From Siphonodentalium dalli (taxonomy: Eukaryota; Mollusca; Scaphopoda; Gadilida; Siphonodentaliidae), in the NCBI GenBank assembly GCA_032622095.1, contig CP136068.1:162893465-162957464 (forward strand): a stretch of 64,000 nt of DNA, written 5' to 3'. This document shows, piece by piece, positions 17,962 to 60,549 of the stretch. A model generated the notes under the pieces. The model was not told the DNA's origin and did no database searches. It saw nothing but the letters and a program-made list of their open reading frames with translations. Each line of letters begins with the position of its first letter. Position 1 is the first letter of the stretch. Made by a program: the position numbers and the translations under genes.

Positions 17962-18603
17962 TCTCATATATATTTTGAAGACCTCTGTCTGTATGTCTGT
18001 CTGTCTGTCTGTCTGTCATTAATACAAATCTACGATTCTCGACCGATCGGGACGAAACTTGGTACGTGTGTGTAGTTTGACCAGGCGGTGGACGTTGTCG
18101 TATTGGCGAGCCCGTGCGGCGCCCGCTTCGCGCATGCGCAGACGAGATCTCGGGAACGGGTTTAGCTATCGACTTGAAATTTGCTATGTGAATGTATCTT
18201 GCCCCGGATACGAATTTTATCGGGTCGCCGAGCCCGTGCGACGCCAGCTTCGCGCATGCGCAGACGAGATCTCGGAAACGGGTGGAGCTATCGACTTGAA
18301 ATTTGCTATGTGAATGTATCTTGCCCCGGATACGAATGTTATCGGGTCGCCGAGCCCGTGCGACGCCAGTTTCGCGCATGCGCAGACGAGATCTCGGAAA
18401 CGGGTGGAGCTATCGAATTGAAATTTGGTATGTGAATGTATCTTGCCCCGGATACGAAGTTTATCGGGTCGCCGAGCCCGTGCGACGCCAGCTTCGCGCA
18501 TGCGCAGACCAGATCTCGGAAAAGGGTGGAGCTATCGACTTGAAATTTGGTTTTTGAATAGCCCGGACAACGTCGCCCGGACAACGTCGGGCTCATCGGC
18601 TAG
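17962..18603 (+). mobile_element. Family B Helitron-like element, tandem unit 1
   Basis: Begins TCTCATATATATTTTG with A just outside and ends CTAG at 18,600-18,603. About 10 nt before the end lies a GCCCGGACAACGTCGGGC hairpin (7-bp stem, one bulged G, 3-nt loop). The interior holds four copies of a 122-bp unit, with GAGATCTCGG landmarks at 18,144, 18,266, 18,388 and 18,510. The arrangement is that of non-autonomous Helitron/Helentron relatives with central satellites. The overlapping 84-94-codon frames on both strands arise from the 122-bp repeat and are not genes. Confidence 0.8.
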
Positions 18604-18991
18604 TCTCATATATATTTTGAAGACCTCTGTCTGTCTGTTTGTCTGTCTGTTTGTTTGTCTGTCATTAATACAAATCTACGATTCTCGACCGATCGGGACG
18701 AAACTTGGTACATGTGTGTAGTTGGACCAGGCGGTGGACGTTGTCGTATTGGCGAGCCCGTGCGGCGCCCGATTCGCGCATGCGCAGACGAGATCTCGGA
18801 AACGGGTGGAGCTATCGACTTGAAATTTGCTATGTGAATGTATCTTGCCCCGGATACGAATTGTATCGGGTCGCAGAGCCCGTGCGATGCCAGCTTCGTG
18901 CATGCGCAGACCAGATCTCGGAAACGGGTAGAGCTATCGACTTGAAATTTGGTTTTTGAATAGCCCGGACAACGTCGGGCTCATCGGCTAG
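18604..18991 (+). mobile_element. Family B Helitron-like element, tandem unit 2
   Basis: Starts with TC directly after the CTAG of unit 1 and ends CTAG at 18,988-18,991, followed by T. It has the same 5' sequence and the same 3' hairpin as unit 1, but only two 122-bp landmarks (18,790 and 18,912). The junction CTAG/TC has no extra base. Confidence 0.8.
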
Positions 18992-19007
18992 TATATATAT
19001 ATATATA

Positions 19008-19633
19008 TCTATTATATATTTTGGAAGATCTGTTTGTGTGTCTGTGTGTCTGTGTGTCTGTGTGTATGTGTGTTCACGATGAACTCGAAAACGGCTGAGC
19101 CGATTTCGATGAAACTTAGTATGTGGGGGTATTTTCGGCCGGCGGGTGGCATGGGCCTATTAATTTGTCCGTGCGACGTGACCTTGACCTTGAAATCTGG
19201 TCATTTCAAGGTCAAACGCCCGAATATCACGGGATTTCGATGAAACTTGGTATGTGGGGGTACTTTCTTATGACGAGTCTCATAAGCATATTCATTTGCC
19301 CGTGCGACGTGACCTTGACCTTGAAATTGGGTAACTTCAAGGTCAAATCGCCAAATTTGATGGGATTTCGACGAAATTTGATACGTGGGGTTACTTTTGT
19401 CCACTGATTGTTTTGGACGGGTCCAGTCGTGACCCCGATCAGACCTTGACCTTCAAAATAATCAATTCAAGGTCAAATCGGGTAAAACCGGATGGATTTC
19501 GACGGGCACGTTTGTCGGGTACTTTTGTCCGGGCAGTGTTTTTGGACTGGTCAAATCGTGACCCCACTTGACCTTGACCTTCAAAATGGACAATTCAAGA
19601 TCAAAGCCCGGACGAAGTCGGGTCACCTTCTAG
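19008..19633 (+). mobile_element. Family B Helitron-like element (second subtype)
   Basis: Begins TCTATTATATATTTTG between A and the element, with a TGTG-rich run, then a GATGAACTCGAAAACGGC block. It ends with GCCCGGACGAAGTCGGG and CTAG at 19,630-19,633, then T. The interior consists of modules pairing TGACCTTGACCTTGAAAT with TTCAAGGTCAAA. It has no 122-bp units, unlike the preceding elements. Confidence 0.8.
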
Positions 19634-19644
19634 TATATATATAT

Positions 19645-22368: not shown

Positions 22369-23115
22369 TCATATTATATTTTGGAAGATCTGTCTGTGTG
22401 TGTGTGTGTCTGTGTGTGTGTCTGTTCGCGATGGACTCGAAAACGACCGAACCGATTTCGATGAAACTTGGTATGTGGGGGTAATTCCGGCCGGGAAGTG
22501 ACATAGGCCTATTAATTTGCCCATGCGACGTGACCTTGACCTTGAAATCGTGTAATTTCAAGGTCAAATGCCCGAATATCACGGGATTTCGATGAAACTT
22601 GGTACGTGGGGGTATCTTCGGCCGGGGAGTGGCATAGGCCTATTAATTTGCCAGTGCGACGTGACCTTGACCTTGAAATCGGGTCATTTCAAGGCCAAAC
22701 GCCCGAATATCTCAGGATTTCGATTAAACTTGGTGTTTAGGGATACTTTCGTGTGGGGAGTCTCATAAGCCTATTCATTTGCCCGTTTGACGTGACCTTG
22801 ACCTTGAAATCGGGTCAATTCAAGGTCAAATCGCGAATTTTGATGGGATTTTCACGAAATTTGATACATAAGGTTACTTTTGTCCACTGAGTGTTTTGGG
22901 CGGGTCAAATCGTGACCCCGACCTGACCTTGACCTTCAAAATGATCAATTCAAGGTCAAATCGGGTAAAACAGGATGGATTTCGACGCGCACTTTTGTCG
23001 GGTACTTTTGTCCGGGCAGTGTTTTGGACGGGTCAAATCGTTATCACAACTGACCTTGACCTTCAAAATGGTCAATTCAAGGTCAAAGCCCGGATGAAGT
23101 CGGGTCACCTTCTAG
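22369..23115 (+). mobile_element. Family B Helitron-like element (second subtype)
   Basis: TC at 22,369 follows A and opens TCATATTATATTTTGG, then a TGTG run and GATGGACTCGAAAACGACC. It ends CTAG at 23,112-23,115 with T outside, preceded by a GCCCGGATGAAGTCGGG hairpin. It has five modules with TGACCTTGACCTTGAAAT and TTCAAGGTCAAA, one more than the 19,008 copy. It is followed by a long (TA)n tract and then the 3' end of a Penelope-like element. Confidence 0.8.
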
Positions 23116-23131
23116 TATATACATATATATC

Positions 23132-26289: not shown

Positions 26290-27592
26290 CAAAACTCATA
26301 CCAATATGTTTAGCACTAACTTCCACCAAATGCATTCACGTTCGTCCCCAATGATGCGAGGAATCAAATAATGTGGGTTAAAGACGCCACATTTGTTGCC
26401 GTTTGTTTCAGGGATGGAGAGAGAAGGGACACTAACATTGACGAAAATTATTTAGTCGCCGATATCCGTCAAAGTTATATATAGTCATCGCCACAATTCG
26501 TTCTAAGGAGTTTTTAACGTTAAAATTTCAGAACCTCGACAAATGATGCCGGATTAAGTCACTTGAACAAATATATCTGCACAACTGTCATGTGTATATG
26601 GGGACGGGAATCAGGGCATTCATATAGCGAGGTAGCATCAACAGATACATAGAAGAAATCATCAAAGGTATATGTATCATTATATTTAAGAGATACATAT
26701 ATTCTTGCAAAATTAGGGACATTGAACCGTGAGAGGCTGCCATGTTGGAATAGCTCATGTATTATAACAATATTGAGTCTGCCCCATTCAACATATTGTC
26801 CACAAAAAGATACAACGTTTCAAGAGAGATGAAACGTATAGAAGGCCTGTTCAAAAATAGTGGTCACAGTGTGCAGTCAAATATAGTTACTTCTGAGATA
26901 AAAGATAACCACAGTCAGTTTGCACATGACTTTTCAGGATCCTCTACTATTGGCGTCATATAGACAAGGGTACATCTGGCCGATACATATTATTTCTTTC
27001 AGTGTTTTAGAACAGACTCATAGCCTAACATAAACAACTTAAAATCTCGCTTTGTGTTGGGCACATGTAGCTGATATATAGTAATATTTCTTTTACACTT
27101 AGAATACTTAGCCAGTGTATAGCACTATCTGTAGAGGAGCACCTGAACATTTCTTAAAGCATCTGTATCGTCATGGATATATGATAACCTGGTGTCATCA
27201 AAATATTAGTTTAACCCACTAGATTGACCTATACATCTCTATGTAAAGCCCAATTGTCGTGCTATGTTTTTTGCAAACTAATGTGTTTATGATGTTCATA
27301 TTTTGATCCCAATAGAAAATATTTAAAACAAAACAAAAACAAACGTCAATTCCAACAACGTCGTCTTTACGATTTAAAAAATGATAATTCTTAAGTACGT
27401 GCAGTTATAAATACCCCATGTATAAGAATGACATTTTGTGGCGCCATTTCGATATAAAATTTATGATAATACGTCTAACACTTACTAACTTAATACGTAT
27501 AACATTAACAAGTATTTGCTATTCCCTCCAAATGTCCACAATAGAGTGTTTCACATCACTTTAACATGGACAACGTCAAGTAACCCTGCTAG
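26290..27592 (+). mobile_element. Family A Helitron-like element, 5'-truncated, 3' end intact
   Basis: Begins inside the repeat array and carries the whole family 3' region (matching 56,040-57,000). It ends with a CACATCACTTTAAC block and AAGTAACCCTGCTAG at 27,589-27,592, followed by T. The terminal hairpin is degraded compared with the copy ending at 28,070. Confidence 0.75.
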
Positions 27593-28014
27593 TATTAAAT
27601 GATCTTCTATAATTACCGTGAACATCAGTAGAGTATAGGAGAGATCATTTCGTTGATCTTACTATTGGGCAGTTACTGTCAGACTAATTATATCTAGGTT
27701 AGTCATTATGTCTAGGCATGGATGATAGTTATTTGGCATAGAATTAAATTCAGATCAACAATTTCTAGGTTAGTTATAATATACATTTCCAGGCTCTGGG
27801 TTATAGTCGGACTGACTATATCTAGGTTAGTTATAAAAATACTCTAATAGTATACAGGAAATGGCATGACTTATAGTTAGTCTAACTATTTCTAGGTTTG
27901 TCACTATATACTACGCTAATGGGTTATAATCAGGCTAACTATTTCTAGGTTAGTCACTATTTTAGCATAATAAAGTATAGTACATATATAGTACATATAT
28001 TAACTGGAATGTGA

Positions 28015-28060
<46 letters not shown>

Positions 28061-28069
28061 ATATATATA

Positions 28070-31014
28070 CTAGCAGGGTTACCCGGCGTTGCCCAGGTTA
28101 AAGTGATGTGAAACCATTTGTTGATATTTGGTGGGAATAGAGAATACCCTTGCTCTCAGAGTGTTACACGTATTCTCATAAAGTGTATATCCAAATGGCA
28201 TCACAAAACATGATTCTTATAAGTAGTGGCTCACCTTGTCAGGTCGGAACATTTATCATTTTATTTATCGCCTTTAATCCGTCCCACCAATAAAGAAGTA
28301 TTTATTTATTTACAACTGTGTATACTTCAGACGTTATAGCATGAAACATGAACATCATAAACATATTAGTTTGAAAAAATAAAAGACCACAATTGTGTTT
28401 TACATAGAGATGTATCAATCAATCAATCTAGTTTATCATATCTTCATGATGATACAGATGTTTTAAAGATATGTCCAGGTGCTCCTCTGTTCTGGTGCTA
28501 TAGACTGGCCAATCATTTTCAGTTTAAAATAATTGATGTGATGCAAGTATAGCAGCTACATGTGCCCGACACAGCGAGATTTTGAGTTGTTTATGTTAGG
28601 CGATGAGTCTGTTCTAAAAAAATGAAAGAAATCCTCTGTATCCGGCAGATATACCCTTGTCAGATGTCAATATTGAATGATTCCGAAACGTCATGTGCCA
28701 CGGACTGCATTTTTTTTCAAAATCTCAGAAGTAACCATATTTGACTGCACACTGTGACCACTATTTTTGAACAGGCCTGCTCTACATTTCCATATCTCTT
28801 GGCAATTGTAACTTTTTTGTGGAAACTATATTGAATGGGACAGACTCAATCGTGTTATAATATATACATGAGTCATTCTAATATGCAATCCTCTGAGGAT
28901 TCAAGGTCCCTCAGTTTGAATGACTATATGTATCTCTTAAATATATTGATATAAATATACTTTCAATGCTTTCTTCTATGTAGCTGTGTTGCAAGAACAT
29001 TATCGGAATGCCCTGATTTCCATCCCCATATAAAGATGACAGTTGAGAAGATATATAATTGTTCAAGTGACTTAATTCGGTCACCATTTGTCGAGATTGT
29101 GAAATTTGAATGCCAAAAACCCCTTAGAACGACCTGGAGATGGCCTGGGAGATGACTATAATATATAACGGCGAATTGAACAATCTTATAAATGCTAGTG
29201 AATCTCCTCTCGCCATCCATGACCCCAAATGTGATTTAATTCATCATATCAATACATATGATGAATTAAATCACCTTATCGGAAGAACGTGCATGAATTT
29301 GGTAGAATCAGTGCTAATTATATTTGTATCAACTTTTGTGCAACTCCCTCATGCATGACTTGATCCACGTAACTTTTGTCATATTTAAACCACGTCTATT
29401 AGACTCATACATGCATTACATAATGGAGATGATTTTATATAAGTTTGGTGGTATTCGGCAACTAAACAAATTCTTATCATAGTTATTGCCCCCCCCCCAT
29501 CTCACCCAAACGGCACCAATTTCGGATCTTTAAACACACGTTTATATTCCTCTTATCGCGGAGAAGAATAATATATCAATTTGGTCGAAATCTATGCTAA
29601 AAATAGCCATCCCCTGACACCAACAACATCACTTTAGAAAATTTTAACCCACACTATTATCTTACTCATAAGAAGTTACTCCTGTTAGACCGCCTTGGTG
29701 CCATCTCGATTGTACTCTTAATGTTATATATAGAAAACAGACATATATTCGCAAATATTATATTCATTGTATCATTTGAGAAGAACGTGTATGAGTTTGA
29801 TGGTAATTGACACCAAACATATTTTTATAAGTTTTTGGTGACCCTCCCGTCCCTATTTCGGATTCAAGCGCGCCATTTTTGACATCATTGAACCACACAC
29901 TTAGACTCATTATAGAGATGAATATATATACAATTTATGAAATATACAATTGATGAAAATTGGCGAGTATACAAATTTGTATCAAATTTAGGGCCACCAT
30001 TGCATATCTCTCACACAAAAGGCACCAATTTGGCGCATTTAAACCACACGATTAGATTATTCGTACCACACAGAAGAATATGTATCAATCATGTGGAAAT
30101 CGGCGCTAAACATATTGTTTATTAATGTTTGTGTCCCTCTCATCCTCTAGGCACCCATGACTCGAATTTCCCCACTTTTGACATCTTTAAACCACACAAT
30201 TAGACTCCTGATATCATGGAGATTATTGTTTGTAAGTTTGGTGCTAATCCGCGACTAAACAATTTTTTTTATCAAATTTAATGCCCACCCCACCCCATCT
30301 CTCACCAAAGCAGCAGCAATATGACGTCTTTAAAATCACACGATGAGATTCCTCATATCATGGATAAGAATGTGTATCAATTTGGTGGAAATTGGCGCTA
30401 AGAATATTGTGTATCAATGTTGGTGCCCATCTCCCTTTCAGTGCACACCTGACTCGAATGACGCCACTTTTGATAACTTTTAGCCACGCCATTAGACACC
30501 TCATACCTTGGGGATGAATTTGTATAAGTTTCGTGGCAATCGGCGATTAAATCAATTCTTGTCAGATTTAGTAAAACCCCAAATCGCCCACCCCAAATCT
30601 CTCATTCCAACGACACCAATTTGGCGTCTTTAAATCACACTATAAGATTCCTTGTATAATAGAGAAGATCTCAGAAGAATGTGCATCAATTTGGTGGAAT
30701 TCGGCGCTAAAATTATTTTAAAACAATTTTGGTACCCCTCTCTCCTTCCGGGTATCCCTGACGCGAACGGTGCGACTTTTGACATATTTAAACCACACCA
30801 TTAGATTCCTCATGTTATGGGGATGAATATATATAAGTTTGGTGGCAATCGGCGACCGTTTTTTTTTGCTCCTGACAACAATGGCGTCACTTTAAAACTT
30901 TCTAACCCTTTTAACGTAAAAAGTTACCCCTATTAGACCCCTTTTGTGCCATCTAGGTGGTCCCCTGTGAACTTCTATAGAACACAGACAGACAGACAGA
31001 CATTCGCAAATATA

Positions 31015-31016
<2 letters not shown>
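28070..31016 (-). mobile_element. Family A Helitron-like element, full-length copy
   Basis: On the minus strand it starts TCTATATTTGCGAATG at 31,016 and ends CTAG at 28,070-28,073, with T just outside the 3' end. The 3' terminus TGGGCAACGCCGGGTAACC plus CTGCTAG resembles Helitron ends with GC-rich inverted bases and CTAG. The order is 5' (TCTG)n block, two blocks of about 300-bp repeats separated by an internal 5'-terminus relic (about 29,690-29,760), then a unique 3' region of about 1.1 kb. The base outside the 5' end is T rather than A, in an (AT)n tract where slippage is likely. There is no Rep or helicase coding sequence, so it is non-autonomous. Confidence 0.8.

Positions 31017-31084
<68 letters not shown>
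31017..31084. repeat. (AT)n microsatellite
   Basis: About 33 uninterrupted AT units at the 5' border of the family A element. The matching place in the right palindrome arm (about 38,168-38,180) has only a short TATATAT stretch, so the tract expanded after the element inserted or was duplicated by slippage. Confidence 0.9.
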
Positions 31085-31088
<4 letters not shown>

Positions 31089-33576
31089 AACAGAGCTAAG
31101 TCCCCCATCATTTTAACGATTGGTGTTACAGAATAATTTGTTCTACTATGTTCAATATAGATTGATAATATATATGTCGTGAATGATGTCAGATACTGTG
31201 TTAAATGTTAACAAATTAAATATTCACAGCGAATAAACACATTCATGTAAAAACCACAGGTCTAACACTGGAATTTTAGGAACGTTCTGCTCACGTAGAT
31301 TAGTAGGCATCACATTTCAAAAACACCCTCTCGAAGTGGTAGAAATCTAAATGTATAACCATTATTGGTTCCTTTAATGAACATGAATGAGGGAATATAT
31401 TCAACTAAAACTACTCATTTTGAAATATTAAAAAATGTTACCTAGAATATGTGTGTTATACCTAATGTAGCTATCCCATAGATAATCAAGCATGTTAAAT
31501 GATAATTAATATGTAATTAATCAGTTGCATATATCACATGGACTTATAGATCTAGATACAAATTGAAAATCTACAGTATTTTACAAAAAAAAACACTGGG
31601 ACAATTAGCAACTATTCTTCTGTCTGTTGATTTGAAGGCAACACATTTCAATTCTGACACAAACTCAATATTTCAGAAGGGTAAAAAACAATCGAAATAT
31701 AAAAATGATGTGCTTTTAATGAAGTTATAAATGTAAAAACATGATAAATAACAAAAAAATCAAAATATGAACATCCAATGTAATTACAATCATCATACAA
31801 CAAATTGTTGAGCAAATACTAAATTGTTCCTATGCGAATATCCCTGTTTATATACGGTAAAACATTAATTTATTCAATCTATCTATAGTCCTAAATAATG
31901 ATGCAATTCGAGCATTCCTCGCATTAAACTACCACATAATATCACAACAGAAATATCCAGCACAGTCTAAATTCCGTACACAAGATATTAAAGCTAATAT
32001 ATTAAATCTATATATAGTCACAAAACATGATGTCATTGTAAGAGATGTCTTCGTCGCATACCTACATCCATTTATTCATGTCAAGCCATTCAGAAGCTGA
32101 AGTTTATCTCTGTCCGCGACAATTAATTTATTCATCTCCACCCTGCTCTACCCCCTCAAAAGTCACATACATACAAAATGTCACTGAGTCTATCATTTCG
32201 TTAATAAGTATCACAGCTGATAAACACTATATAAGTCGAGCGAAAATAGCTGTTCCAGGCATGCTTTACTCTATGGATTTAAAATTGCTATTCGCCAGGT
32301 AAGTTTAATTATATTATGATTTCAAATAACTTTTCGACAATTTATTAATATCTTATACAACCTATGTTTTATGTAATTTATAACAAAATTAGTATAATTA
32401 AACTCAAGTTTGTATGTTTTTCCACTGGCTATCGGAGCAAAACAATGTGTTTATAGATGTATGGTTTTAATGCATAGGAGCTGTTCACCTCAGTCAACTT
32501 AAATGGCACTAATATTTATTTTATTATTTGGATACAGTACACCATGTTTAAAGCAGTTGTCTCAAAATGCTACACAGATTTATATTATTATTTGGATACA
32601 GTTCACCATATTTAACCCTCATTTCTTAAAATGGCACTAAGATTTGCTTTGATACAGGCCATCAAAATGGTTCGAACATCAGAGTTGAAAACGTGTAGGT
32701 ATGGATAATTTTACCCTAGTATTCTTAATAAATAGGTCCCATTCACATCATATTTCTTAAAAGGGTGCTAATAATCAACACAAAAATTATACTAATTTAT
32801 GATATCATAAAAGAGCGTGTATTATCTTTACATGCAACTCATTCACACCCCAGGCCCCTCATATCTGGAAATCTTATTAGATAGGCAACGGTGAAATCAA
32901 ATATCTTAAAAGGGGCATTAATGATTAATTAAATCCGTAAAAATGCTACCTATCTAATAAGATGTGAATTGGACTTATTTATGAAGAATGCTGGGGTAAA
33001 AATATTTATACGTACAAATGTTCAGCTTTGATGTTCGAACCGTTTTGATGACCGGTATCCAAATAAATCTTAGTGCCATTTTAAGACATCAGAGTTAAAC
33101 ATGGTGTACTGTATCCAAATAATATAATAAATCTTAGTACCATTTTAAAACAACTTCTTTAAACGTGGTGTACTGTATCCACACAAAAAAATCTAAGTGC
33201 CATTGTAAGACCACTGAGGTGAACAGCTCCAATGCTTTATAATCATACATCTATAAACACATTGTTTTGCACCGATAGCCAGTGGAAATCATACAAAGTT
33301 GAGTTTAAATATACTAATTTTGTTCTAAATTACATAAAACATAGGTTGTACAAGATACTAATTAATTACCGAAACGATATTTGAAATCACAATATAATTA
33401 AAATTAACTGGCGATTAGCATTTTTAAATCCATAGAGTAAATCATGCCTGGAAGAGCTATTTTCGCTTGACTTGTATAGCGTTTATTGGCAGTGGAATGT
33501 ATACATATACACACTTTGTATGGTGATAAATATGCGACTTATGAATAGTTCGTTCACGAAATGATACTCAGTGACA

Positions 33577-34452
33577 TCTATTATATATTTTGAAAGATCT
33601 GTGTGTGTGTGTATGTGTTTGTTTGTGTGTGTGTGTGTGTGTGTGTTTGAAATCGATGGACTCGAAAACGACTAAGCCAATTTCGATGAAATTTGGTATT
33701 TTAGGGTATTTTCGGCCGGAGACGAACATAGGCATATTTATTTGTCCGTGCGAGGTCAACTTTTCACGTGCGGAGGTCAAATCTATTTTTACGCCGTTTT
33801 TGCGCTAATATATTTCAGTTCGGTGCTCACAAATCGATTCGATATAGCGCGAATAATAAATTGCCAGTCATATAATTTGCACGGTTAGAATCTGTGTGGC
33901 TTCATCTTTCCAACGATATATAATATGTATGTATCCGTTTTAGTTATCTGCCTCAATTATTAGGTACAAGTGGTACGATGCTTTTATCAGGATAAAATCA
34001 ATGCGTAATTTCTATGACGTCGTCAGAGGTCATAAAGTTAGATTACGTTAACTCTCACCCTGCCGATGCATTTGACTGTGTCGCGTTAACTCATCACCGG
34101 CCGAGGTATCCGCAAATGACATTGGGCTATATATCTCGGAAACGGGTGTAGCTATCGACTTGAAATTTGGTATGTGAATGTATCTTGCCCCGGATACGAA
34201 TTTTATCGGGTCGCCGAGCACGTGCGACGCCAGCTTCGCGCATGCGCAGACGAGATCTCGGAAACGGGTTAAGATATTGACTTTAAATTTGGTATGTGAA
34301 TGTATCTTGCCCCGGATACGAATTTTATCGGGTCGCCGAGCACGTGCGACACCAGCTTCGCGCATGCGCAGACCAGATCTAGGAAACGGGTGGAGCAATC
34401 GACTTGAAATTTGGTTTTTTAATAGCCCGGACGAAGTCGGGTCACCTTCTAG
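33577..34452 (+). mobile_element. Family B Helitron-like array, unit 1 of 4
   Basis: TC at 33,577 follows A (GTGACA outside). It starts TCTATTATATATTTTG, then a TGTG run and GATGGACTCGAAAACGACT. The middle is unique (GGTCATAAAGTTAGATTACG and ATCACCGGCCGAGGTATCC). Two 122-bp-type repeats follow, then GCCCGGACGAAGTCGGG and CTAG at 34,449-34,452. Length is 876 bp. The 5' part resembles the 19,008 and 22,369 elements; the 122-bp repeats resemble those at 18.1-18.6 kb. Confidence 0.85.
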
Positions 34453-35202
34453 TCTATTATATATTTTGAAAGATCTGTGTGTGTATGTATGTGTTTGTTT
34501 GTGTGTGTGTGTGTGTGTTTGAAATCGATGGACTCAAAAACGACTAAGCCAATTTCGATGAAATTTGGTATTTGGATGTGTTTTCGGCCGGAGACGAACA
34601 TAGGCATATTTATTTGTCCGTGCGAGGTCAACTTTTCACGTGCGGAGGTCAAATCTGTTTTTACGCCGTTTTTGCGCTAATATATTTCAGTTCGGTGCTC
34701 ACAAATCGATTCGATATAGCGCGAATAATAAATTGCCAGTCATATAATTTGCACGGTTAGAATCTGTGGCGTGTCCTCTTTCCAACGATATATAATATGT
34801 ATGTATCCGTTTTAGTTATCTGCCTCAATTATTAGGTACAAGTGGTCCGATGCTTTTATCGGGATAAAATCAATGCGTAATTTCTATGACGTCGTCAGAG
34901 GTCATAAAGTTAGATTACGTTAACTCTCACCCTGCCGATGCATTTGACTGTGTCGCGTTAACTCATCACCGGCCGAGGTATCCGCAAATGACATTGGGCT
35001 ATATATCTCGCAAACGGGTGTAGCTATCGACTTGAAATTTGGTATGTGAATGTATCTTGCCCCGGATACGAATTTTATCGGGTCGCCGAGCACGTGCGAC
35101 ACCAGCTTCGCGCATGCGCAGACCAGATCTAGGAAACGGGTGGAGCTATCGACTTGAAATTTGGTTTTTGAATAGCCCGGACGAAGTCGGGTCACCTTCT
35201 AG
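34453..35202 (+). mobile_element. Family B Helitron-like array, unit 2 of 4
   Basis: Starts with TC immediately after the preceding CTAG and ends CTAG at 35,199-35,202. Length is 750 bp, with a single 122-bp-type repeat set before the 3' hairpin. It is otherwise almost identical to unit 3 through the 5' and middle parts (both have CTGTGGCGTGTCCTC where units 1 and 4 have CTGTGTGGCTTCATC). Confidence 0.85.
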
Positions 35203-36074
35203 TCTATTATATATTTTGAAAGATCTGTGTGTGTATGTATGTGTTTGTTTGTGTGTGTGTGTGTGTGTTTGAAATCGATGGACTCAAAAACGACTAAGCC
35301 AATTTCGATGAAATTTGGTATTTGGATGTGTTTTCGGCCGGAGACGAACATAGGCATATTTATTTGTCCGTGCGAGGTCAACTTTTCACGTGCGGAGGTC
35401 AAATCTGTTTTTACGCCGTTTTTGCGCTAATATATTTCAGTTCGGTGCTCACAAATCGATTCGATATAGCGCGAATAATAAATTGCCAGTCATATAATTT
35501 GCACGGTTAGAATCTGTGGCGTGTCCTCTTTCCAACGATATATAATATGTATGTATCCGTTTTAGTTATCTGCCTCAATTATTAGGTACAAGTGGTCCGA
35601 TGCTTTTATCGGGATAAAATCAATGCGTAATTTCTATGACGTCGTCAGAGGTCATAAAGTTAGATTACGTTAACTCTCACCCTGCCGATGCATTTGACTG
35701 TGTCGCGTTAACTCATCACCGGCCGAGGTATCCGCAAATGACATTGGGCTATATATCTCGGAAACGGGTGTAGCTATCGACTTGAAATTTGGTATGTGAA
35801 TGTATCTTGCCCCGGATACGAATTTTATCGGGTCGCCGAGCACGTGCGACACCAGCTTCGCGCATGCGCAGACCAGATCTAGGAAACGGGTTGAGATATT
35901 GACTTTAAATTTGGTATGTGAATGTATCTTGCCCCGGATACGAATTTTATCGGGTCGCCGAGCACGTGCGACACCAGCTTCGCGCATGCGCAGACCAGAT
36001 CTAGGAAACGGGTGGAGCAATCGACTTGAAATTTGGTTTTTTAATAGCCCGGACGAAGTCGGGTCACCTTCTAG
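35203..36074 (+). mobile_element. Family B Helitron-like array, unit 3 of 4
   Basis: TC follows CTAG directly; it ends CTAG at 36,071-36,074. Length is 872 bp with two 122-bp-type repeats, like unit 1. The middle carries the same CTGTGGCGTGTCCTC variant as unit 2. Confidence 0.85.
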
Positions 36075-36810
36075 TCTATTATATATTTTGAAAGATCTGT
36101 GTGTGTGTGTGTATGTGTTTGTTTGTTTGAAATCGATGGACTCCAAAACGACTAAGCCAATTTCGATGAAATTTGGTATTTGGATGTGTTTTCGGCCGGA
36201 GACGAACATAGGCATATTTATTTGTCCATGCGAGGTCAACTTTTCACGTGCGGAGGTCAAATCTATTTTTACGCCGTTTTTGCGCTAATATATTTCAGTT
36301 CGGTGCTCACAAATCGATTCGATATAGCGCGAATAATAAATTGCCAGTCATATAATTTGCACGGTTAGAATCTGTGTGGCTTCATCTTTCCAACGATATA
36401 TAATATGTATGTATCCGTTTTAGTTATCTGCCTCAATTATTAGGTACAAGTGGTACAATGCTTTTATCGGGATAAAATCAATGCGTAATTTCTATGACGT
36501 CGTCAGAGGTCATAAAGTTAGATTACGTTAACTCTCACCCTGCCGATGCATTTGACTGTGTCGCGTTAACTCATCACCGGCCGAGGTATCCGCAAATGAC
36601 ATTGGGCTATATATCTCGGAAACGGGTGTAGCTATCGACTTGAAATTTGGTATGTGAATGTATCTTGCCCCGGTTACGAATTTTATCGGGTCGCCGAGCA
36701 CGCGCGACACCAGCTTCGCGCATGCGCAGACCAGATCTAGGAAACGGGTGGAGCAATCGACTTGAAATTTGGTTTTTGAATAGCCCGGACGAAGTCGGGT
36801 CACCTTCTAG
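36075..36810 (+). mobile_element. Family B Helitron-like array, unit 4 of 4
   Basis: TC follows CTAG directly; it ends CTAG at 36,807-36,810 with T outside. Length is 736 bp. The TGTG run is shorter and the middle carries the CTGTGTGGCTTCATC variant shared with unit 1. The sequence then resumes the palindrome arm (TTTTATATACAATG). Confidence 0.85.
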
Positions 36811-38672
36811 TTTTATATACAATGCAACTTTTGAGAGGGTGGAGATGAAGAAATAATTCGCCTCGTACAAAGATAAACTTCAACTTATGAATGGCTCGAC
36901 TCGAATAAATGGATGTAGGTATGCGACAAATACATATCTTACAGTGACATCATGTTTTGTGGCTATATATTGATGGAATATATTAGCTTTTGTGTCTTAT
37001 GTACGGAATTTAGACTGTGCTCGACGTTTCTGTTGTGATATTATGTGGTAGTTTAATGCGGGGAATGCTTACATCTCGAATGACATAACTTTTTGGACAA
37101 TAGATAAATTGAATAAATAAATATTTTACCGTATATAAACAGTCATTCGCATAGGAAAAATTGTATTTGCTCAACAAATTGTTGTATGATGGATTATATG
37201 TTCTTTGATGGGAAAGTAAATCTTGTTATATTACAGCAAACCAGTTACTGTTTTTTAACGATGATTGTGGTACTAAAAACGACTTTTTGTGTGTTTTTTT
37301 AGATGGAGTTTTATTTTTAGTAAAAACATTTTGAAAATTGATTGTTAAATTGTATACGTATATTTAACATTAGTTTGGTTTTTTTAAAGTTAGAATAGTT
37401 AATTACAGTGACATTGGATGTTCATATTTTGATTGTTTTGGAACAACTATGACAAATAATAAAGAATTGTGTTGACGGAAAAAATACTTTACTGATGTTT
37501 TTGTTGTTTATTTATCATTTTATAATTTCATTTAAAGGACATAGATTTTATAGTTCGATTGTTTTCGACCCTTCTGAAATATTGAGTTTGTGTCGGAATT
37601 GAAAAGTGTTGCCTTCAAATCAACCGAAAGAACAGTTGCTAATTGTTGCAGTGGTTTTTTTTGTAAAATACTGTAGATTGTCAATTTGTATACCTATAGC
37701 TATACCTCCATGTGATATATGCAACTAATTAATTACATATCAATTATCATTCAACATGCTTGATTATCTATGGAAAAGCTACATTAAATATAACATACAG
37801 ATATTCTAGGTAACATTTTTTTTATTATTTCAACATGACTAGATTGATTTGAATAAATTCCCTTCATTCATGTCCATTAAAGGATGGTTATACATTTCGA
37901 TTCCTACCACTATGAAATGGTGTTATTGAAATGTGTTGCCTACTAACTAAATGAGAAGAACGTTCCTAACGTCCCAGTGGTTAGACCTGTGGTTTATACA
38001 TGCCTGGTTTTATTCGCTGTGAATATTTAATTTTTGTTTCATTTAACACAGTATGTGACATTATTCTCTAACATATATATTATCAATCGTTTAACATCTA
38101 TATTGAACTTAATAGAACAAATTATTCTGTAACACCAATCGTTCAAATGACGGGGGACCTAATTCTTTATACATATATATACTCACATTCCAGTTAATAT
38201 ATGTAGATTTTGTCACTACACTTTGTTACGATAAAACAGTGACTCACCTAGAAATAGTTAGCCTTACTATAACCCATTTGCCTAGTATATAGTGACTAAC
38301 CTAGAAATAGTTAGACTAACTATAAGTCATGCCCTATAGTCATGGGATGTTAACTTCCTTTTCTTTATATTATTAGCCTAGAAATAGTATTGTTATAACT
38401 AACCTAGATATTGTTAGTCCGACTATAACCCATTAGCCTAGAAATAGTATGTTATGACAAACCTAGAAATAGTTAGTCTGAGGTGAAACCTGTGCCCATT
38501 TAGTCACATGATGTTATCTGCTTTTTCTTTATACTATTAGCCTAGAAATAGTATTTTATGACTAACATAGATATAGCTAGACTATAATCCATGCCTAGAA
38601 ATAGTGACTGTAATATAGTGAAATAATTAATCTGACAATTAGTGTCCTATAACTCTCCTATACACTGCTAAC

Positions 38673-40004
38673 ATCTTAGCTTAATAGTATGTGAGCACTC
38701 TCGTGGTGGGGGTTTATTCACAGACGACCGGGCACGACCCTCATAAGCTTTGTGCTTGGTGTCGAATCCCTCCATAAACTAATAATCATACATAATATTT
38801 TGTATTGTACATATTGAATTATATGTCATAAATACTGTTTACATCAAATAATCTTTCATAACACAGAATGTGTTATAGATAGACAGTGGCCTAGTATCGT
38901 ATGCGGTGTACATCACCGCAGTTTTCTAGACTACATAAGATATCACAGGTCAAACAATATTGCTCTATCCCCCATAAAGAGGGGCACGAAAAATGAAAAA
39001 TTGCGCTTGTTGTATATGTTTACTATACATCGCAGAAATCTTGCTATATATCAATGAAATCGTGACAATTAAATGTATAAAAGTAGGTAGATTATAATAT
39101 GTAAAAATATCGCGTTTCTCTACTTTTATACAAAATATAGCGATTTGTGTTGACTGTTTCCACATTAACCTCTCAAAATCATATTTTGCAACATTTGTAT
39201 ATTTCACACCGGGTTATATCTGGTGCGCAATGTCATAGCCTTCAAATAGATTTATCACAAGCCTTGTATGGTGCCGATGTACTATAAAATTTCTGAAATT
39301 GGTTCCGTCCGCTTCACTATAAGACAAATGCGAACAGGATATAAAAAGGAGCCCCACATGGAACACAATCTTAAGCGATTTAGGTAACAGTTAACCTGCT
39401 TCCGTTAATTAGGCTGATTTGATGAGATGCCACACCTTAGTTTTAGATGTTTCGTCTGCTTTAAATTATCAGGAACGTAAATGTATTTAGAAGGTCTATG
39501 TTGTGTAAGGGGTATCCACCTTACTGCACCCTACACAAAGAGATCAAAGTATCCCAAGTCCGAGAATGCCATTACCACCCCCCCCCCTTTGGTTGGAGTT
39601 TTCCAACGTGTACCTGGAACTTTTTAACTGTTCGAAATAGCTAACCTAACACCTACATACATGGTTGCAAATCAATTCCAAGTATACCATATAATTCAAA
39701 AACATGACTGAATGTAGTCAAAAACATGAATAAAAGTAGGAAAAGATTCGACTTTGGGTCTCGTTACATCAGATCAAAATGTCACGTAAGTTGGTGATAA
39801 ATTCCCTACTAATATACTGTGTAAGGCATTATAATTCGAATGGCTACAATTTTGGCCAAAGTCCCGGATATCTTTGGTACTCTAATCAACAGTTCGCATA
39901 TCCTGGGTACGGTACACGTATATAGTAATGGTATTGGATATTCTTGGTACTCTAATAATTGGAAAATTGCGAACTCGGCAAAGTCAGCAGTAATATAATG
40001 TCTA
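38673..40004. other. Region upstream of the GIMAP-like gene
   Basis: No exon is supported. A poly-C run lies at 39,580-39,588. Duplicated GGTACTCTAAT words occur at 39,878 and 39,947. A first non-coding exon of the GIMAP-like gene may lie here, but I cannot place it. Confidence 0.4.
39340..39347 (+). promoter_or_regulatory. Possible TATA box upstream of GIMAP-like gene
   Basis: TATAAAAA in a GC-richer context (GGATATAAAAAGGAGCC), about 660 bp upstream of the first in-frame ATG of the GTPase gene. A GTAACA donor-like site lies about 35 bp downstream. Such words are common in A+T-rich DNA, so the assignment is weak. Confidence 0.25.
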
Positions 40005-41354
40005 ATGCATACTATTGTTCTATTGACAGTCAACCCACCGAAGGAGCAGGTGAGGATTGTACTATTGGGCAAGACCGGAGTCGGAAAAAGTGCCACAGGA
40101 AATACCATCTTGGGCAAAAAATATTTCCAATCGGCATCGAGCGCAGAATCCGTGACCTCAAAATGTCATGTTGGAATCAAACCAGTGGTCCGCGTTATAG
40201 ACACCCCAGGATTCTATGACAGTCGTGTGTCCAACAACGAAACCGGGAAGGAGCTTATCAAGTGCATCGCAATGTCAACTCCGGGTCCTCATGCTTTTAT
40301 CATGGTTGTCAAACCAGACAGATTCACACAAGAAGAGATTCAAACTGTTGAACTGATAAAGAAAACATTTGGCCAAGAAGTTATGAGATACATGATAGTC
40401 CTGTTCGTGAGAAAAGATGAACTTGATTTTGATGGAATATCCATAGATGCTTTTCTGAAGAAAATTCCAAACGATCTTCGCAAACTGCTTAGTGATTGTA
40501 AGAACGAGTACATTGTATTTAATAACAGAGCAGACGATGCAGAAAAAAATAAGCAATCACGCGACCTCATTGACCGTGTCCATGCTATCACTGCACGTAA
40601 TGGCGGGAAATATTATTCCAGCGATATACTTGAAGCTGCAGAAAAGGCCATGTGCGAAGAGGAGGATAAACGCACTCGTGAGCTCGAAGAAGAGGAGAAT
40701 AAGAAAAACGAAGCCATCAACGAGCGTATTCGGAAAGCTCGCCAGTCCTTAGAGAAGGAGCATCAGGACAGAGCGAGGAAGCAGAAGGAGAAGGAACAAG
40801 TCGCGCGCGTAAAGGAGGAGGCAAAACACAAGCGTCAGATTGAAGACAAGGAGAGGGAATTCAAGGCCAAAGAGGAGGAAAATCAGGACAGAGCGAGGAA
40901 GCAGAAGGAGAAGGAACATGTCGCGCGCGTAAAGGCGGAGGAGAAACACAAGCGTGAGGTGGAAGACAAGCAGAGGGAAGTCGAGGCCAAAGAGAAGGAG
41001 CATCAGGACAGAGCGAGGAAGCAGAGAGAGGAGGAAAGAGTCGTGCGCTCAAAGGCGGATGAGAAACACAGGCGTGAGATGGAATACATGAGGAATGCAT
41101 GTGAGGCCAAAGAGCAGGAGAATCGGGACAGAGCGAGGATGCAGCAGAAAATAGAAGAAGTTGAGCGACAATTGGATGTCATGGAGAAGGAAAAGGAGGA
41201 CACAAAAGCATATTATGCTAAGAAGAAGGGATCAGTTCGTGACGAGGTTGTGAAAGACGTTGAAAATGAATCGTTCAGTATTCTCGATAAGATCGGGAGT
41301 TTCGCGAAATATATATATAATTCTTTGATTGAATTTTTTTTTAGATTAAATTAA
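40005..41354 (+). CDS. GIMAP/AIG1-family GTPase with repeated coiled-coil tail
   Basis: The 449-residue frame opens with an AIG1-type G domain. G1 is GKTGVGKS (22-29), the G2 Thr is 51, G3 is DTPG (66-69), the family box STPGPHAFIMVV follows (91-102), G4 is VRKDEL (135-140) and G5 is FNNR (172-175). From about 205 to 430 the protein is a charged, Glu/Lys/Arg-rich coiled coil containing three exact-length 40-residue repeats starting with (E/K)xxQDRARKQ at 252, 292 and 332, and a partial fourth at 372. The last 17 residues (FAKYIYNSLIEFFFRLN) are hydrophobic/amphipathic and could contact membranes. GIMAPs bind GTP, assemble on membranes and are linked to immune and survival responses; function here is inferred. 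The codons before GTC at 40,029 end in TTGACAG, so the true coding exon may start at 40,030 after splicing and the first eight residues may be intronic. The frame is intact to TAA. Confidence 0.88.
   Translation: MHTIVLLTVNPPKEQVRIVLLGKTGVGKSATGNTILGKKYFQSASSAESVTSKCHVGIKPVVRVIDTPGFYDSRVSNNETGKELIKCIAMSTPGPHAFIMVVKPDRFTQEEIQTVELIKKTFGQEVMRYMIVLFVRKDELDFDGISIDAFLKKIPNDLRKLLSDCKNEYIVFNNRADDAEKNKQSRDLIDRVHAITARNGGKYYSSDILEAAEKAMCEEEDKRTRELEEEENKKNEAINERIRKARQSLEKEHQDRARKQKEKEQVARVKEEAKHKRQIEDKEREFKAKEEENQDRARKQKEKEHVARVKAEEKHKREVEDKQREVEAKEKEHQDRARKQREEERVVRSKADEKHRREMEYMRNACEAKEQENRDRARMQQKIEEVERQLDVMEKEKEDTKAYYAKKKGSVRDEVVKDVENESFSILDKIGSFAKYIYNSLIEFFFRLN
40758..41140 (+). repeat. 120-bp tandem repeat inside the GIMAP-like coding region
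   Basis: ATCAGGACAGAGCGAGG (or ATCGGGACAGAGCGAGG) begins at 40,762, 40,882, 41,002 and 41,122, exactly 120 bp apart. No indels have accumulated, so all units keep the reading frame and the 40-residue coiled-coil period. The repeat also holds several minus-strand frames open; those are Leu-rich mirror images of the coiled coil and not genes. Confidence 0.9.
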
Positions 41355-53022: not shown

Positions 53023-53947
53023 TTGGTAAAAATGTGATAGCTAGAGATACACACGTGACCTATGAAAAGACCACGTGACCAAGTGCCCTTATATAACGGT
53101 TCACGTTATACAGTCCTATATACATGCAGAGACTGCCTCTTATCTGCACTATCTCACACTTTTCCTGGTGTTATATAGTCTGGAACTTATAACAAATATC
53201 ATGTGTACATGTATGTGCCCATCACTGGAACGCGTATGCGTTATATTCACTGGACGGCCATATTTACACCACATGTACCCGTCCTGCTGGCAGTATGTAC
53301 CCGATTTCGACTCAAGTCGCTATCGGCAGTGTATGTGTAATTCGACTGTAGTCACGATCGGCAGTGAACGAGTTAAGATCCGCTATTCTGTTCACGTTAT
53401 ATGGTGAACACCGCGCCCCACGCGGCCTGGTTATTGTGGAATGACCTATATAGGCTCGGCATCCATTTCGAGATATTTTGGGTCCGTCATAAATATTTTG
53501 CATATATTATACATAGCCTATATAATTATGCACACCATTCCGTTCAAGTATATATATATGCTAATCCACCCCCGCCAGATTCACAAGTTTGCAGCGAAAC
53601 CCGGGGAGATAAGACGGTTCTGATTGAATGACGCGCCGTTTCTGAGATAAATATCTGTCATTTTGTTAAAGTATCCCCACGGCCCGATTCATAAAGTTTT
53701 ACATATATAGCGAAACGTAGGGGGATGACGATTATAAATATGGATTTGTGAGATTATATGGATGAAAGAACGATACCAGTTGTCGGATACAATAATAATA
53801 ATATCCTGCACAAATACCCACCATTCCGTTCATGCTACCCCCACTCACCCCACCGTCATGATTACCCAAATTTTCAGCGAAACGCGGGGGTGATAATGTG
53901 ACGGAATAACGTAATAACTTGTATAATCTATATATATAATTTATATA
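53023..53947. other. No recognisable gene
   Basis: Open frames at about 53,075-53,407 and 53,401-53,631 have no motif and no splice context. The rest is A+T-rich. Nothing is supported. Confidence 0.4.
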
Positions 53948-56900
53948 TCTATATTTGCGAATGTCTGTCTGTCTGTGTTCTATAGAAATTCACAGGGGAC
54001 CACCTAGATGGCACAAAAGGGGTCTAATAGGGGTAACTTTTTACGAGAAAGATAATGGCGAGGGTTAGAATTTTCTAAAGTGACGCCGCTGTTGTCAGGG
54101 GTAGAAAAGGGGGAGGGGCAGAAAAAAATTGGCGCCGATTGCCACCAAACTTATATATAATCATCCCCATAATATGAGGAATCTAATGGTGTGGTTTAAA
54201 TATGTCAAACGTCGCGCCGTTCGCGTCAGGGATGCCCGGAAGGGGAGAGGGGCACCAAAATTGATCTATATTTGCGAATGTCTGTCTGTCTGTGTTCTAT
54301 AGAAATTCACAGGGGACCACCTAGATGGCACAAAAGGGGTCTAATAGGGGTAACTTTTTACGAGAAAGATAATGGCGAGGGTTAGAATTTTCTAAAGTGA
54401 CGCCGTTGTTGTCAAGGGTAGAAAAGGGAGAGGGGCAGACAAAAAATTGGCGCCGATTGCCACCAAACTTATATATAATCATCCCCATAATATGAGGAAT
54501 CTAATGGTGTGGTTTAAATATGTCAAACGTCGCGCCGTTCGCGTCAGGGATGCCCGGAAGGGGAGAGGTGCACCAAAATTGATCAAAATAATTTTAGCGC
54601 CGAATTCCACCAAATTGATGCACATTCTTCTGAGGTCTTCTCCATGATACAAGGAATATTATTGTGTGATTTAAAGACGCCAAAATGGTGTCGTTGGGAT
54701 GAGATATTAGAGGGGGCGGTGGGTGGGTACTAAATCTGATAAGAATTGGTTTAGTCGCCGATTGCCACGAAACTTATACAAATTCATCCCCATGGTATGA
54801 GGTGTCTAACGGCGTGGCTTAAAGCTGTCACAAGTGGGGTCATTCGAGTCAGGGTGCACTGAAAGGGAGAGGGGCACCAAAATGGATACAACATATTTTT
54901 AGCGCCAATTTCCACCAAATAGATACACATTCTTATCCATGATATGAGGAATCTAATCGTGTGATTTTTAAGACGTCATATTGGTGAGAGATGCTTTGGT
55001 GAGATATTTCGGTGGGGTGGGGTGGGGTTTATCACTAAATTTGATAAAAAATTGTTTAGTCGCGGATTAGCACCAAACTTACAAATAATAATCCCCTGAT
55101 ATCAGGAGTCTAAGTGTGTGGTTTAAAGATGTCAAAAGTGGGGCCATTCGAGTCAGGGGTGCCTAGGTGGTGAGAGGGACACACACATTGATAAACAATA
55201 AGTTTAGCGCCGATTTCCACCTGATTGATGCATATTCTTCTCCGTGATACGAATAATCTAATCATGTGGTTTAAATGCGCCAAATTGGTGGCTTTTTGGT
55301 GAGATATATGCAATGGTGGCCCTAAATTTGATACGAATTTGTATACTCGCCAATTTTAATAAATTATATATATATTCATCTCTATAATGAGTCTAAGTGT
55401 GTGGTTTAATGATGTCAAAAGTGGCGCCGCTTGAATCCGATATAGGGACAGGAGGGTCACTAAAAACTTATAAAAATATGTTTAGTGCCAATTACCATCA
55501 AACTCATACACGTTCTTCTCAAATGATACAATGAATCAAATATTTGCGAATGTCTGTCTGCGTTCTATATATAACTTTAAGGGTACAATCGAGATGGCAC
55601 CAAGGCGGTCTAACAGGGGTAACCCTTTACGAGTAAGATAATGGTGCAGGTTAATATTTTCTAAAGTGACGTTGTTGGTGTCAGGGGATGGCTATATTAG
55701 CGCAGATTTCGACGAAATTGATATATTAGTCTTCTCCTTGATACGAGGAATATAAACGTGTGATTTAAATACGCAAAATTGGTGCCGTTTTGGATGAGAG
55801 ATGGGGGGGGGGTAATAACTATGATAAGAATTTGTTTAGTTGCCGATTATCACCAAACTTATATACAATAATCTCCATTATATAATGCATGCATGAGTCT
55901 AATAGACGTGGTTTAAATATGACAAAAGTGGCACGGTTCAAGTCATGCATGAGTGGAGTTGCACCAAAGTTGATCCAAATATATTTAGCACTGATTCCAC
56001 CAAACTCATGCACGTTCTTCTCTAATGATATGATGAATTAAATGGGGTCGTTTGGGTCACGGATGGCGAGAGGAGATTCACTTTCATTTATAAGATTGTC
56101 CAATTCGCCGATATCCAACAAAATTACATAGTCATCTCCCAGGCCATCTCCATGTCGTTATAAGGAGTTTTTGGCATTCAAATTTCACAATCTCGACAAA
56201 TGGTGACCGAATTAAGTCACTTGAACAATACTATCTTCTCAACTGTCATATTTATATGGGGATGCAAATCAGGGCATTCCTATAATGATCTAGCAACACA
56301 TATACATAGAATAAAGCATTAAAAGTATATTTATATCAATCTATTTAAGAGATACATATATTCATTCAAACCGAGGGACATTGAATCGTCAGAGGATTGC
56401 ATATTAGAATGGCTCATGTATATATTATAACACGATTTAGTCTGTCCCATTCAATATAGTTTCCACAAAAAAAGTTACAGTTGCCAAGAGATATGGAAAT
56501 GTAGAGCAGGCCTGTTCAAAAATAGTGGTCACAGTGTTCAATCAAATATGGTTACTTCTGAGATAAAGGAAAACGCAGTCCGTAGCACATGCCATTTCAG
56601 GATCCTCCAATAGTGACATCTGACAAGAGTATATATATCTGCCCTATACAGAGGATTTCTTTAATTTGTTTAGAACAGACTCATCGCCTAACATAAACAG
56701 CTCAAAATATCGCTGTGTCTGCCACATGTAGCTGCTATACTAGCATAACATCATTTCTTTTAAACTGAAAATGATTAGCCTGTCCAGAGGAGCACCTGGA
56801 CATATCTTTAAAACATATGTATCTTCATGAAGATATGATAAACTTGATTGATTGATTGATTGATACATCTCTATGTAAAACACAATTGTCGTCTTTTATT

Positions 56901-57105
56901 TTTTCGAACTAATGTGTTTATGATGTTTATGTTTCATGCTATAACATATGAAGTATACGCAGTTGTAAATAAATAAATATTTCTTTATTGGTGGGACGAA
57001 TTAAACGCGATAAACAAAATGATAATCGCTCCGACCTGACAAAGTGAGCCACTACTTATATTCCATGTGTACGAATCATGTTTTGTGATACCATTTGGAT
57101 ATACA
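53948..57105 (+). mobile_element. Family A Helitron-like element, 3'-truncated
   Basis: Starts TCTATATTTGCGAATG with A outside. A 317-bp segment (53,948-54,264) comprising the 5' end and first repeat is tandemly duplicated: a second TC 5' end starts at 54,265, again after A. The array continues to about 56,030, interrupted at about 55,543-55,680 by the internal 5'-terminus relic. The 3' region follows to 57,105, where similarity to the 28,070 copy stops about 130 bp before the expected CTAG. Confidence 0.8.
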
Positions 57106-59344: not shown

Positions 59345-60549
59345 ATATTTTGACCAACCTTATCCACATTTGATTACCGGCATATGTATGATTTTGACCA
59401 ACCTTATCCACATTTGATTACCGGCATATGTATGATTTTGACTAACCTTATCCACATTGGACTACCGGCATATGTATGATTTTGACTAACCTTATCCACA
59501 TTTGACTACCGGCATATGTATGATTTTGACTAACCTTATCCACATTTGACTACCGGCATATGTATGATTTTGACTAACCTTATCCACATTTGACTACCGA
59601 CATATGTATGATTTTGACTAACCTTATCCACATTTGACTACCGGCATATGTATGATTTTGACTAACCTTATCCACATTTGACTACCGGCATATGTATGAT
59701 TTTGACTAACCTTATCCACATTTGACTACCGGCATATGTATGATTTAGACTAACCTTATCCACATTTGACTACCGGCATATGTATGATTTTGACTAACCT
59801 TATCCATATTTGACTACCGGCATATGTATGATTTTGACTAACCTTATCCACATTTGACTACCGGCATATGTATTATTTTGACTAACCTTATCCACATTGG
59901 ACTACCGGCATATGTATTATTTTGACTAACCTTATCCACATTGGACTACCGGCATATGTATGATTTTGACTAACCTTATCCATATTTGACTACCGGCATA
60001 TGTATGATTTTGACTAACCTTATCCACATTTGACTACCGGCATATGTATGATTTTGACTAACCTTATCCATATTTGACTACCGGCATATGTATGATTTTG
60101 ACTAACCTTATCCACATTGGACTACCGGCATATGTATGATTTTGACTAACCTTATCCATGTTTGACTACCGGCATATGTATGATTTTGACTAACCTTATC
60201 CATATTTGACTACCGGCATATGTATGATTTTGACTAACCTTATCCACATTTGACTACCGGCATATGTATGATTTTGACTAACCTTATCCACATTTGACTA
60301 CCGGCATATGTATGATTTTGACTAACCTTATCCATATTTGACTACCGGCATATCATGTATGATTTTGACTAACCTTATCCATATTTGACTACCGGCATAT
60401 CATGTATGATTTTGACTAACCTTGTCCATATTTGACTACCGGCATATCATGTATGATTTTGACTAACCTTATCCACATTTGACTACCGGCATATGTATGA
60501 TTTTGACCAACCTTATCCACATTGGACTACCGGCATATGTATTATTTTG
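59345..60549 (+). repeat. 44-bp minisatellite, about 27 units
   Basis: The unit is ATTTTGACTAACC, then TTATCCACATTTGACTACC and GGCATATGTATG, 44 bp from 59,347 to 59,391 and onward. Three units near 60,350-60,450 carry a 3-bp insertion (CATATCATG), giving 47 bp. Variants are ordered: GACCAACC occurs in the first two units and the last, GACTAACC in between; CACATTTG, CACATTGG, CATATTTG and CATGTTTG alternate in patches. Units are contiguous with no spacers. Confidence 0.95.

Follow-up and report, generated by a model that had tools for sequence, protein, structure and literature searches.

A worn palindrome in the Siphonodentalium dalli genome as a likely member of a family of giant, non-coding, probably Polinton-mobilized foldback-like elements

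The genome of the scaphopod Siphonodentalium dalli (2.23 Gb in nine contigs, C1-C9) contains, in the 64,000-nucleotide stretch analyzed here and referred to as the window (G000:C8:162893465-162957464), an ~11-kb palindrome that is most likely an old, shortened, and worn copy in a family of non-coding palindromic mobile elements. The family is foldback-like, probably mobilized by Polintons, and unusual in the size of its full-length palindromy. Palindromes of kilobase size whose arms are separated by hardly any spacer, or by none, are generally held to be too unstable to persist. Despite this expected instability, the genome keeps at least two nearly perfect ~14-kb palindromes together with a family of inverted pairs of similar span.

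An earlier sequence-only reading of the window had placed the palindrome at 27628..38672 and proposed arms of ~2.4 kb around a spacer shorter than 60 bp. The palindrome is genuine, since the inverted matches reported by self-comparison (E-values down to 0.0; Table 1) run outside both of its Helitron-like insertions. Its size was also correctly estimated, while its borders have to be moved to 27627 and 38669, the coordinates at which homology is lost in an arm-to-arm alignment; they were set by eye, jointly with the duplication described below. Without the two insertions, the arms measure 2.3-2.55 kb, as anticipated. They share 86.4% identity over the 1,928 three-way columns shared with the paralogue C8c, and 1,833 of 2,231 aligned arm positions are identical when the Helitrons are set aside and ~150 bp of unrelated flank on each side and the unmatched center are included. 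Identity per 100 bp is mostly ~0.83-0.95, with some outer or gap-rich blocks at 0.69-0.8, and indels break up the arms, such as a segment of ~220 bp near 37200-37430 that is present in the right arm only. The spacer is larger than had been thought: the long arm alignments end at 32754 and 32956, leaving a central remainder of ~200 bp because the left arm has ~112 bp of extra sequence, and the halves of a 15-bp inner inverted repeat (32871-32885/32949-32963) stand 63 bp apart. At its outer borders, the palindrome is flanked by an AACATC duplication that is exact only at length 6 (lengths 2-12 compared), and its terminus AGTAGAGTATAGGAGAG is identical to the reverse-complemented right end AGCAGTGTATAGGAGAG at 15 of 17 positions. 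The exact 6-bp duplication therefore identifies the window palindrome as a transposable element, and not as a local inverted duplication or an assembly foldback.

The sequence-only reading had also recommended looking for other genomic copies, and these exist. A 701-bp central query returns at least 167 matches in the same genome, many of which form inverted pairs (best 40 of 474 candidates). Ten relative loci were examined, and the seven that were completed to both ends with their flanks span 7.7-14.7 kb (Table 1), each possessing its own exact 6-bp duplication. The duplication is thus exact at 6 bp in all eight copies with both ends, the window included, and at none of the other lengths between 2 and 12; as a control, 140,000 draws of random left and right 6-mers from the flanks of the seven loci yielded 168 agreements. 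These border tests leave out L016 (ends not in hand, arms ~98.5% alike), L029 and L030 (no end pair), C8c (left end only), and C8d (no ends). The borders of C3a, C9a, C2a, and C4a were taken from self-alignment before any look at duplications, those of C1a and C8b were located by the end motif, and those of C1b by motif and symmetry. The ends read AGTAGT...ACTACT in six of the eight copies. The window arms match the large elements in separate stretches at ~64-88%, within the outer half of their arms, and nothing in the window corresponds to the C9a arm inward of position ~3,735 (6,969 positions in total).

A probe made of the terminal 351 bp of C9a returns at least 44 matches in the genome (best 40 of 158 candidates). 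From 40 of these matches, at least 16 inverted pairs can be formed, C9a included, of which 14 span 13.3-14.9 kb, one 10.1 kb, and one 18.8 kb. These pairs are known by their ends and span, interior symmetry having been examined for C9a only. Bit scores are equal at both ends in 10 of the 16 pairs, and eight matches are unpaired, one of them being the left end of C1a. The 18.8-kb pair (C9:155263822-155282579), larger than the others, may contain inserted sequence or a coding core. Viral contigs returned no exact match for one terminal and one internal motif.

The copies differ in symmetry. The most symmetric one, C9a, is its own reverse complement without any spacer, with four mismatches over 6,969 arm positions and no gap, followed by C3a with seven mismatches over 6,960 positions, four gap columns, and a short central loop. 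The arms of C2a are 99.3% identical with 674 gap columns, and those of C4a 98.6% with ~240 bp of unmatched center. In three further copies the center no longer matches, and the outer arms, in 500-bp bins, are ~98-100% (C1a, outer 5 kb), ~91-98% (C8b, outer 3 kb), and ~93-97% (C1b, outer 3 kb) identical. Centers are best preserved in the two copies whose arms are most alike, an order that the window breaks, being the most diverged among the copies studied and having a nearly intact center. Copy ages may be read off arm identity.

Trees built from homologous stretches of the arms pair the arms of the same element as sister tips for all 5 elements in the mid region, all 4 in the inner region, and all 3 having both arms in the outer region, six different elements being represented overall. 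Each tree was restricted to arms covering at least 70% of the reference stretch. The mid-region tree is accordingly devoid of C8b, C1b, and the window, the inner-region tree of C1a, C8b, C1b, and the window, and the outer-region tree of C1a, C2a, C4a, one C1b arm, and one window arm, so that the sister-arm test covers copies other than the window. Arm identity within a copy is 98.5-100% in the mid and inner regions, and copies differ from each other by up to 22% in the former and 5% in the latter. C9a is closest to C2a in its middle (96.5%) and to C3a in its inner part (99.6%), with the same mosaic in both arms. Sister arms and a mosaic common to both arms imply that the arms were equalized after the copies had diverged or recombined. 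Judging from these trees, the arms are made equal anew within each lineage in the six copies.

Regarding coding content, no start-to-stop open reading frame (ORF) of at least 120 residues was found in the inner 9.3-9.9 kb of four elements (L013, L014, L015, and L017). In the full C9a arm, the longest open stretch between two stop codons comprises 143 residues, against 74-121 in 20 mononucleotide shuffles; it overlaps 305-bp tandem repeats and does not return any Pfam match. Six short arm ORFs (four from C9a, two from the window) did not return any Pfam match either, nor did the window return any Rfam match at gathering scores. Having no PolB, integrase, or capsid gene of its own in these tests, the element is therefore at most a non-autonomous Polinton. 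A Polinton helper is plausible in view of the many PolB-type genes in the same genome: a PF03175 profile search reports at least 149 matches, most open frames being near 950 or 1,310 residues (best 69 of 1,596 candidates), and these two size classes suggest that Polintons were recently active. The available part of PMC8097293 assigns to Mavericks 6-bp duplications and the end motif 5'-(AGT)2//(ACT)2-3', also (AG)3//(CT)3, and gives lengths of 12.7-24.6 kb and inverted repeats of 46-1,447 bp for intact vertebrate Mavericks. The palindromes therefore share with Polintons/Mavericks the 6-bp duplications, the (AGT)2//(ACT)2 ends, and a similar overall length. In contrast to these coding elements, no coding capacity was found in them, and their inverted repeats are not limited to 46-1,447 bp but extend over the entire element.

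We propose, with a probability of about 0.7, that the family consists of giant non-autonomous foldback elements, palindromic from end to end, mobilized by Polintons and equalized as self-complementary hairpins. The Polinton/Maverick integrase would recognize the element ends in trans and insert the element, which would be copied by the protein-primed Polinton DNA polymerase or through the folding back of a displaced single strand. Being self-complementary, each single strand could form a ~7-kb hairpin, and hairpin repair or self-templated synthesis would make the arms identical at every cycle. Once inserted, the arms would drift, the center ceasing to match in three of the copies with less similar arms, and arm divergence would date the insertion in a manner comparable to the divergence of long terminal repeats. 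In the window, Helitron A would have entered the left arm after much divergence, and the tandem Helitron B array the right arm. If the arms are indeed equal at birth and age later, every insertion represents a dated experiment on the decay of long palindromes. If the Polinton link holds, they would parasitize a virus-like element without having genes of their own, and would shed indirect light on Polinton replication.

Several observations weigh against this proposal. The hairpin intermediate, the protein priming, and any present-day activity are hypothetical. The window ends (AGTAGA/AGCAGT) and the right end of C1b (ATTAGT) depart from (AGT)2, and the nearly intact center of the most diverged copy means that center erosion is not strictly tied to arm age. 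The weakest sister pair is that of C8b in the outer region, its arms being 95.6% identical to each other versus 95.0-95.3% to C1b, with a support of 0.79. Concerted arms could also result from arm-to-arm gene conversion after insertion, a process known for Y-chromosome palindromes, and the sister-arm trees fit any homogenization within a copy. Ordinary conversion in resident copies, in place of a hairpin step at transposition, is thus a possible but less convincing source of the arm likeness: some resident copies have drifted, with arms 86.4% identical in the window, ~91-98% over the outer 3 kb in C8b and C1b, and ~98-100% over the outer 5 kb in C1a, and center integrity, the window excepted, is greatest in the two copies whose arms are most alike. 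Lastly, none of 40 terminal matches (best 40 of 158 candidates) lies within 30 kb of 69 PolB loci (best 69 of 1,596 candidates), and no coding Polinton with matching termini was found among these PolB loci and terminal matches, which speaks weakly against the proposal. This lack of a coding partner with the same ends would also suit giant foldback elements moved by another 6-bp-duplicating transposase superfamily, the more so as the foldback structure is said in PMC4079207 to have several independent origins, most of them in Mutator. We consider such a transposase unlikely, as the duplication is exactly 6 bp in 8 of 8 copies, and not 9 bp as is most common in Tm1 or 7-8 bp as in Galileo, and as the (AGT)2 ends fit the Maverick motif. 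A Mutator-type foldback was rejected, since none of the eight copies matches at length 8, 9, or 10 (at least five mismatches each).

Regarding the origin of the window palindrome, the sequence-only reading had hesitated between a foldback element, an inverted duplication through replication template switching, and an assembly artefact. The first is retained on account of the 6-bp duplication, the terminal inverted repeats, and the relatives with their own duplications. The window read alone would permit a single local inverted duplication by template switching, an explanation that becomes extremely improbable, being contradicted by the exact 6-bp border duplication and by related elements on other contigs, which possess duplications of their own. 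Assembly artefacts are known to take the shape of nearly perfect 14-kb palindromes, and the copies described here are known from the assembly. Nonetheless, an assembly foldback, which would repeat the flanks too, is very improbable: symmetry stops at the element borders, the flanks differ, every completed copy is bounded by its own duplication, and the window arms differ by ~14%.

The elements are largely composed of long inverted repeats that contain tandem repeats, as exemplified by the C9a arm. In this organization they resemble the foldback transposons, a type that includes FB of Drosophila: like Galileo, Tetris, and the nematode Tm1, which are moved in trans, they occur as non-coding copies of this composition, in the present case probably moved in trans as well. 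In the excerpts of the sources at our disposal, Galileo has terminal inverted repeats of 18-1,250 bp, copies with two such repeats averaging 1.7-2.2 kb (PMC3573991), and duplications of 7-8 bp (PMC4168063); Tm1 (Mutator/Foldback) has mostly 9-bp duplications and named copies of 1.1-2.6 kb (PMC3169594), and Tetris has duplications of 8-10 bp (PMC4079207). Compared with Galileo and Tm1 as described in these excerpts, the arms of the present palindromes are larger, up to ~7 kb, and spacerless in C9a; compared with all three, whose duplications are there given as 7-10 bp, theirs are exactly 6 bp. A literature search, subscription journals being mostly outside its reach and absence hence unproven, found among the papers listed no report of a Polinton-type foldback, a palindromic Polinton, or a non-autonomous Polinton/Maverick.

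Among protein- or hairpin-primed DNA viruses, snap-back or panhandle defective genomes are self-complementary, built from one end, and helper-dependent. The palindromes resemble them by a self-complementary genome built from one end and needing a helper, with the difference that they are known as chromosomal insertions. It can tentatively be imagined that they are hyperparasites of Polintons, that is, gene-free self-complementary genomes of a capsid-like size of ~14 kb, replicated by Polintons, perhaps packaged as snap-back hairpins, and re-symmetrized at each cycle. If so, they would represent, within chromosomes, the equivalent of palindromic defective interfering genomes of viruses.

Helitrons are characterized by TC...CTAG termini, a target between A and T, and tandem head-to-tail units. 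As the sequence-only reading had recognized, the arms of the window palindrome hold different Helitron-like families, one per arm, element A in the left arm only and a four-unit B array in the right arm only (Table 1). Both display a TC 5' end, a CTAG 3' end, and a clean insertion without target duplication, B exhibiting in addition the A/T target and the head-to-tail tandem units, which are 96.3-98.9% identical to each other. They are insertions into the palindrome and not parts of it: the left arm is the empty site of the B array, and the empty site of A is seen in the right arm and in the paralogue C8c, although the (TA)n run blurs its exact target. In C8c (C8:162.738-162.741 Mb), the left flank and the left copy of the duplication are accompanied by a left arm that lacks Helitron A. 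This arm is 94.6% identical to the left arm of the window, as compared with 86.4% between the window arms, which indicates that Helitron A inserted after much of the arm divergence, barring conversion between paralogues. The idea that the insertions had stabilized the palindrome by breaking its symmetry is hence not supported for Helitron A, the arms having apparently diverged beforehand. Far larger and nearly perfect palindromes, C9a and C3a, are also present in the same assembly.

The paralogous locus seems to be split. C8c comprises the left flank and the left arm to the center, whereas C8d (C8:162.783 Mb), ~43 kb from C8c, comprises the inner right arm and the right flank, as if the break lay near the palindrome center. 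Further Helitron pieces occur in the window: a second A-type piece of opposite orientation (26408-27595) stops ~30 bp short of the palindrome's left border, positions 53922-57105 hold a closer Helitron A copy (87% across 2.9 kb), and B-like pieces at 18054-19643 and 22375-23130 share the CTTCTAG end and contain inner tandem repeats of 122-131 bp.

Table 1. Features of the window palindrome and its completed relatives; positions without a contig name refer to the window.
Feature	Position	Strand	Length or identity	Remark
Left target site duplication copy	27621..27626	.		AACATC, identical to 38670-38675
Left arm, outer part	27627..28069	+		Terminal inverted repeat AGTAGAGTATAGGAGAG and degenerate subterminal repeats
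Helitron-like element A	28070..31016	-		TC...CTAG termini; in (TA)n run of left arm
Left arm, inner part	31017..32754	+		Contains 64-bp repeats at 32501-32645
Center	32755..32955	.		~112 bp of left-only sequence and 15-bp inverted repeat around 63 bp
Right arm, inner part	32956..33576	-		Inverted-match alignments
Tandem Helitron-like B array	33577..36810	+		Four units, right arm; inserted between A and T
Helitron B units	33577-34452, 34453-35202, 35203-36074, 36075-36810	+		Joined CTAG/TC
Right arm, outer part	36811..38669	-		Ends in terminal inverted repeat, reverse complement AGCAGTGTATAGGAGAG
Right target site duplication copy	38670..38675	.		AACATC, identical to left copy
Inverted match	27750-28029/38481-38168		78.8%	Self-comparison
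Inverted match	31072-31762/38181-37493		83.4%	Self-comparison
Inverted match	31791-32144/37191-36836		85.0%	Self-comparison
Inverted match	32212-32754/33494-32956		85.7%	Self-comparison
C9a	C9:25595129-25609066		13,938 bp	Duplication GTAGTT
C3a	C3:27377683-27391606		13,924 bp	Duplication AACATC
C2a	C2:165423746-165437849		14,104 bp	Duplication GACATT
C4a	C4:226841918-226856651		14,734 bp	Duplication TATGTC
C1a	C1:212228971-212240004		11,034 bp	Duplication GACGGG
C8b	C8:170598646-170606321		7,676 bp	Duplication CTCTTC
C1b	C1:44098674-44106898		8,225 bp	Duplication CCCGTC

Elsewhere in the window, a tandem array of 27 copies of a 44-bp unit (96% matches) occupies positions 59347-60549. On the forward strand, positions 40005-41354 encode a 449-residue ORF of the AIG1/GIMAP GTPase family (E-value 1.3e-62). 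C8d has repeated sequence related to this ORF at ~84%, and the ORF may therefore belong to a tandem gene cluster.

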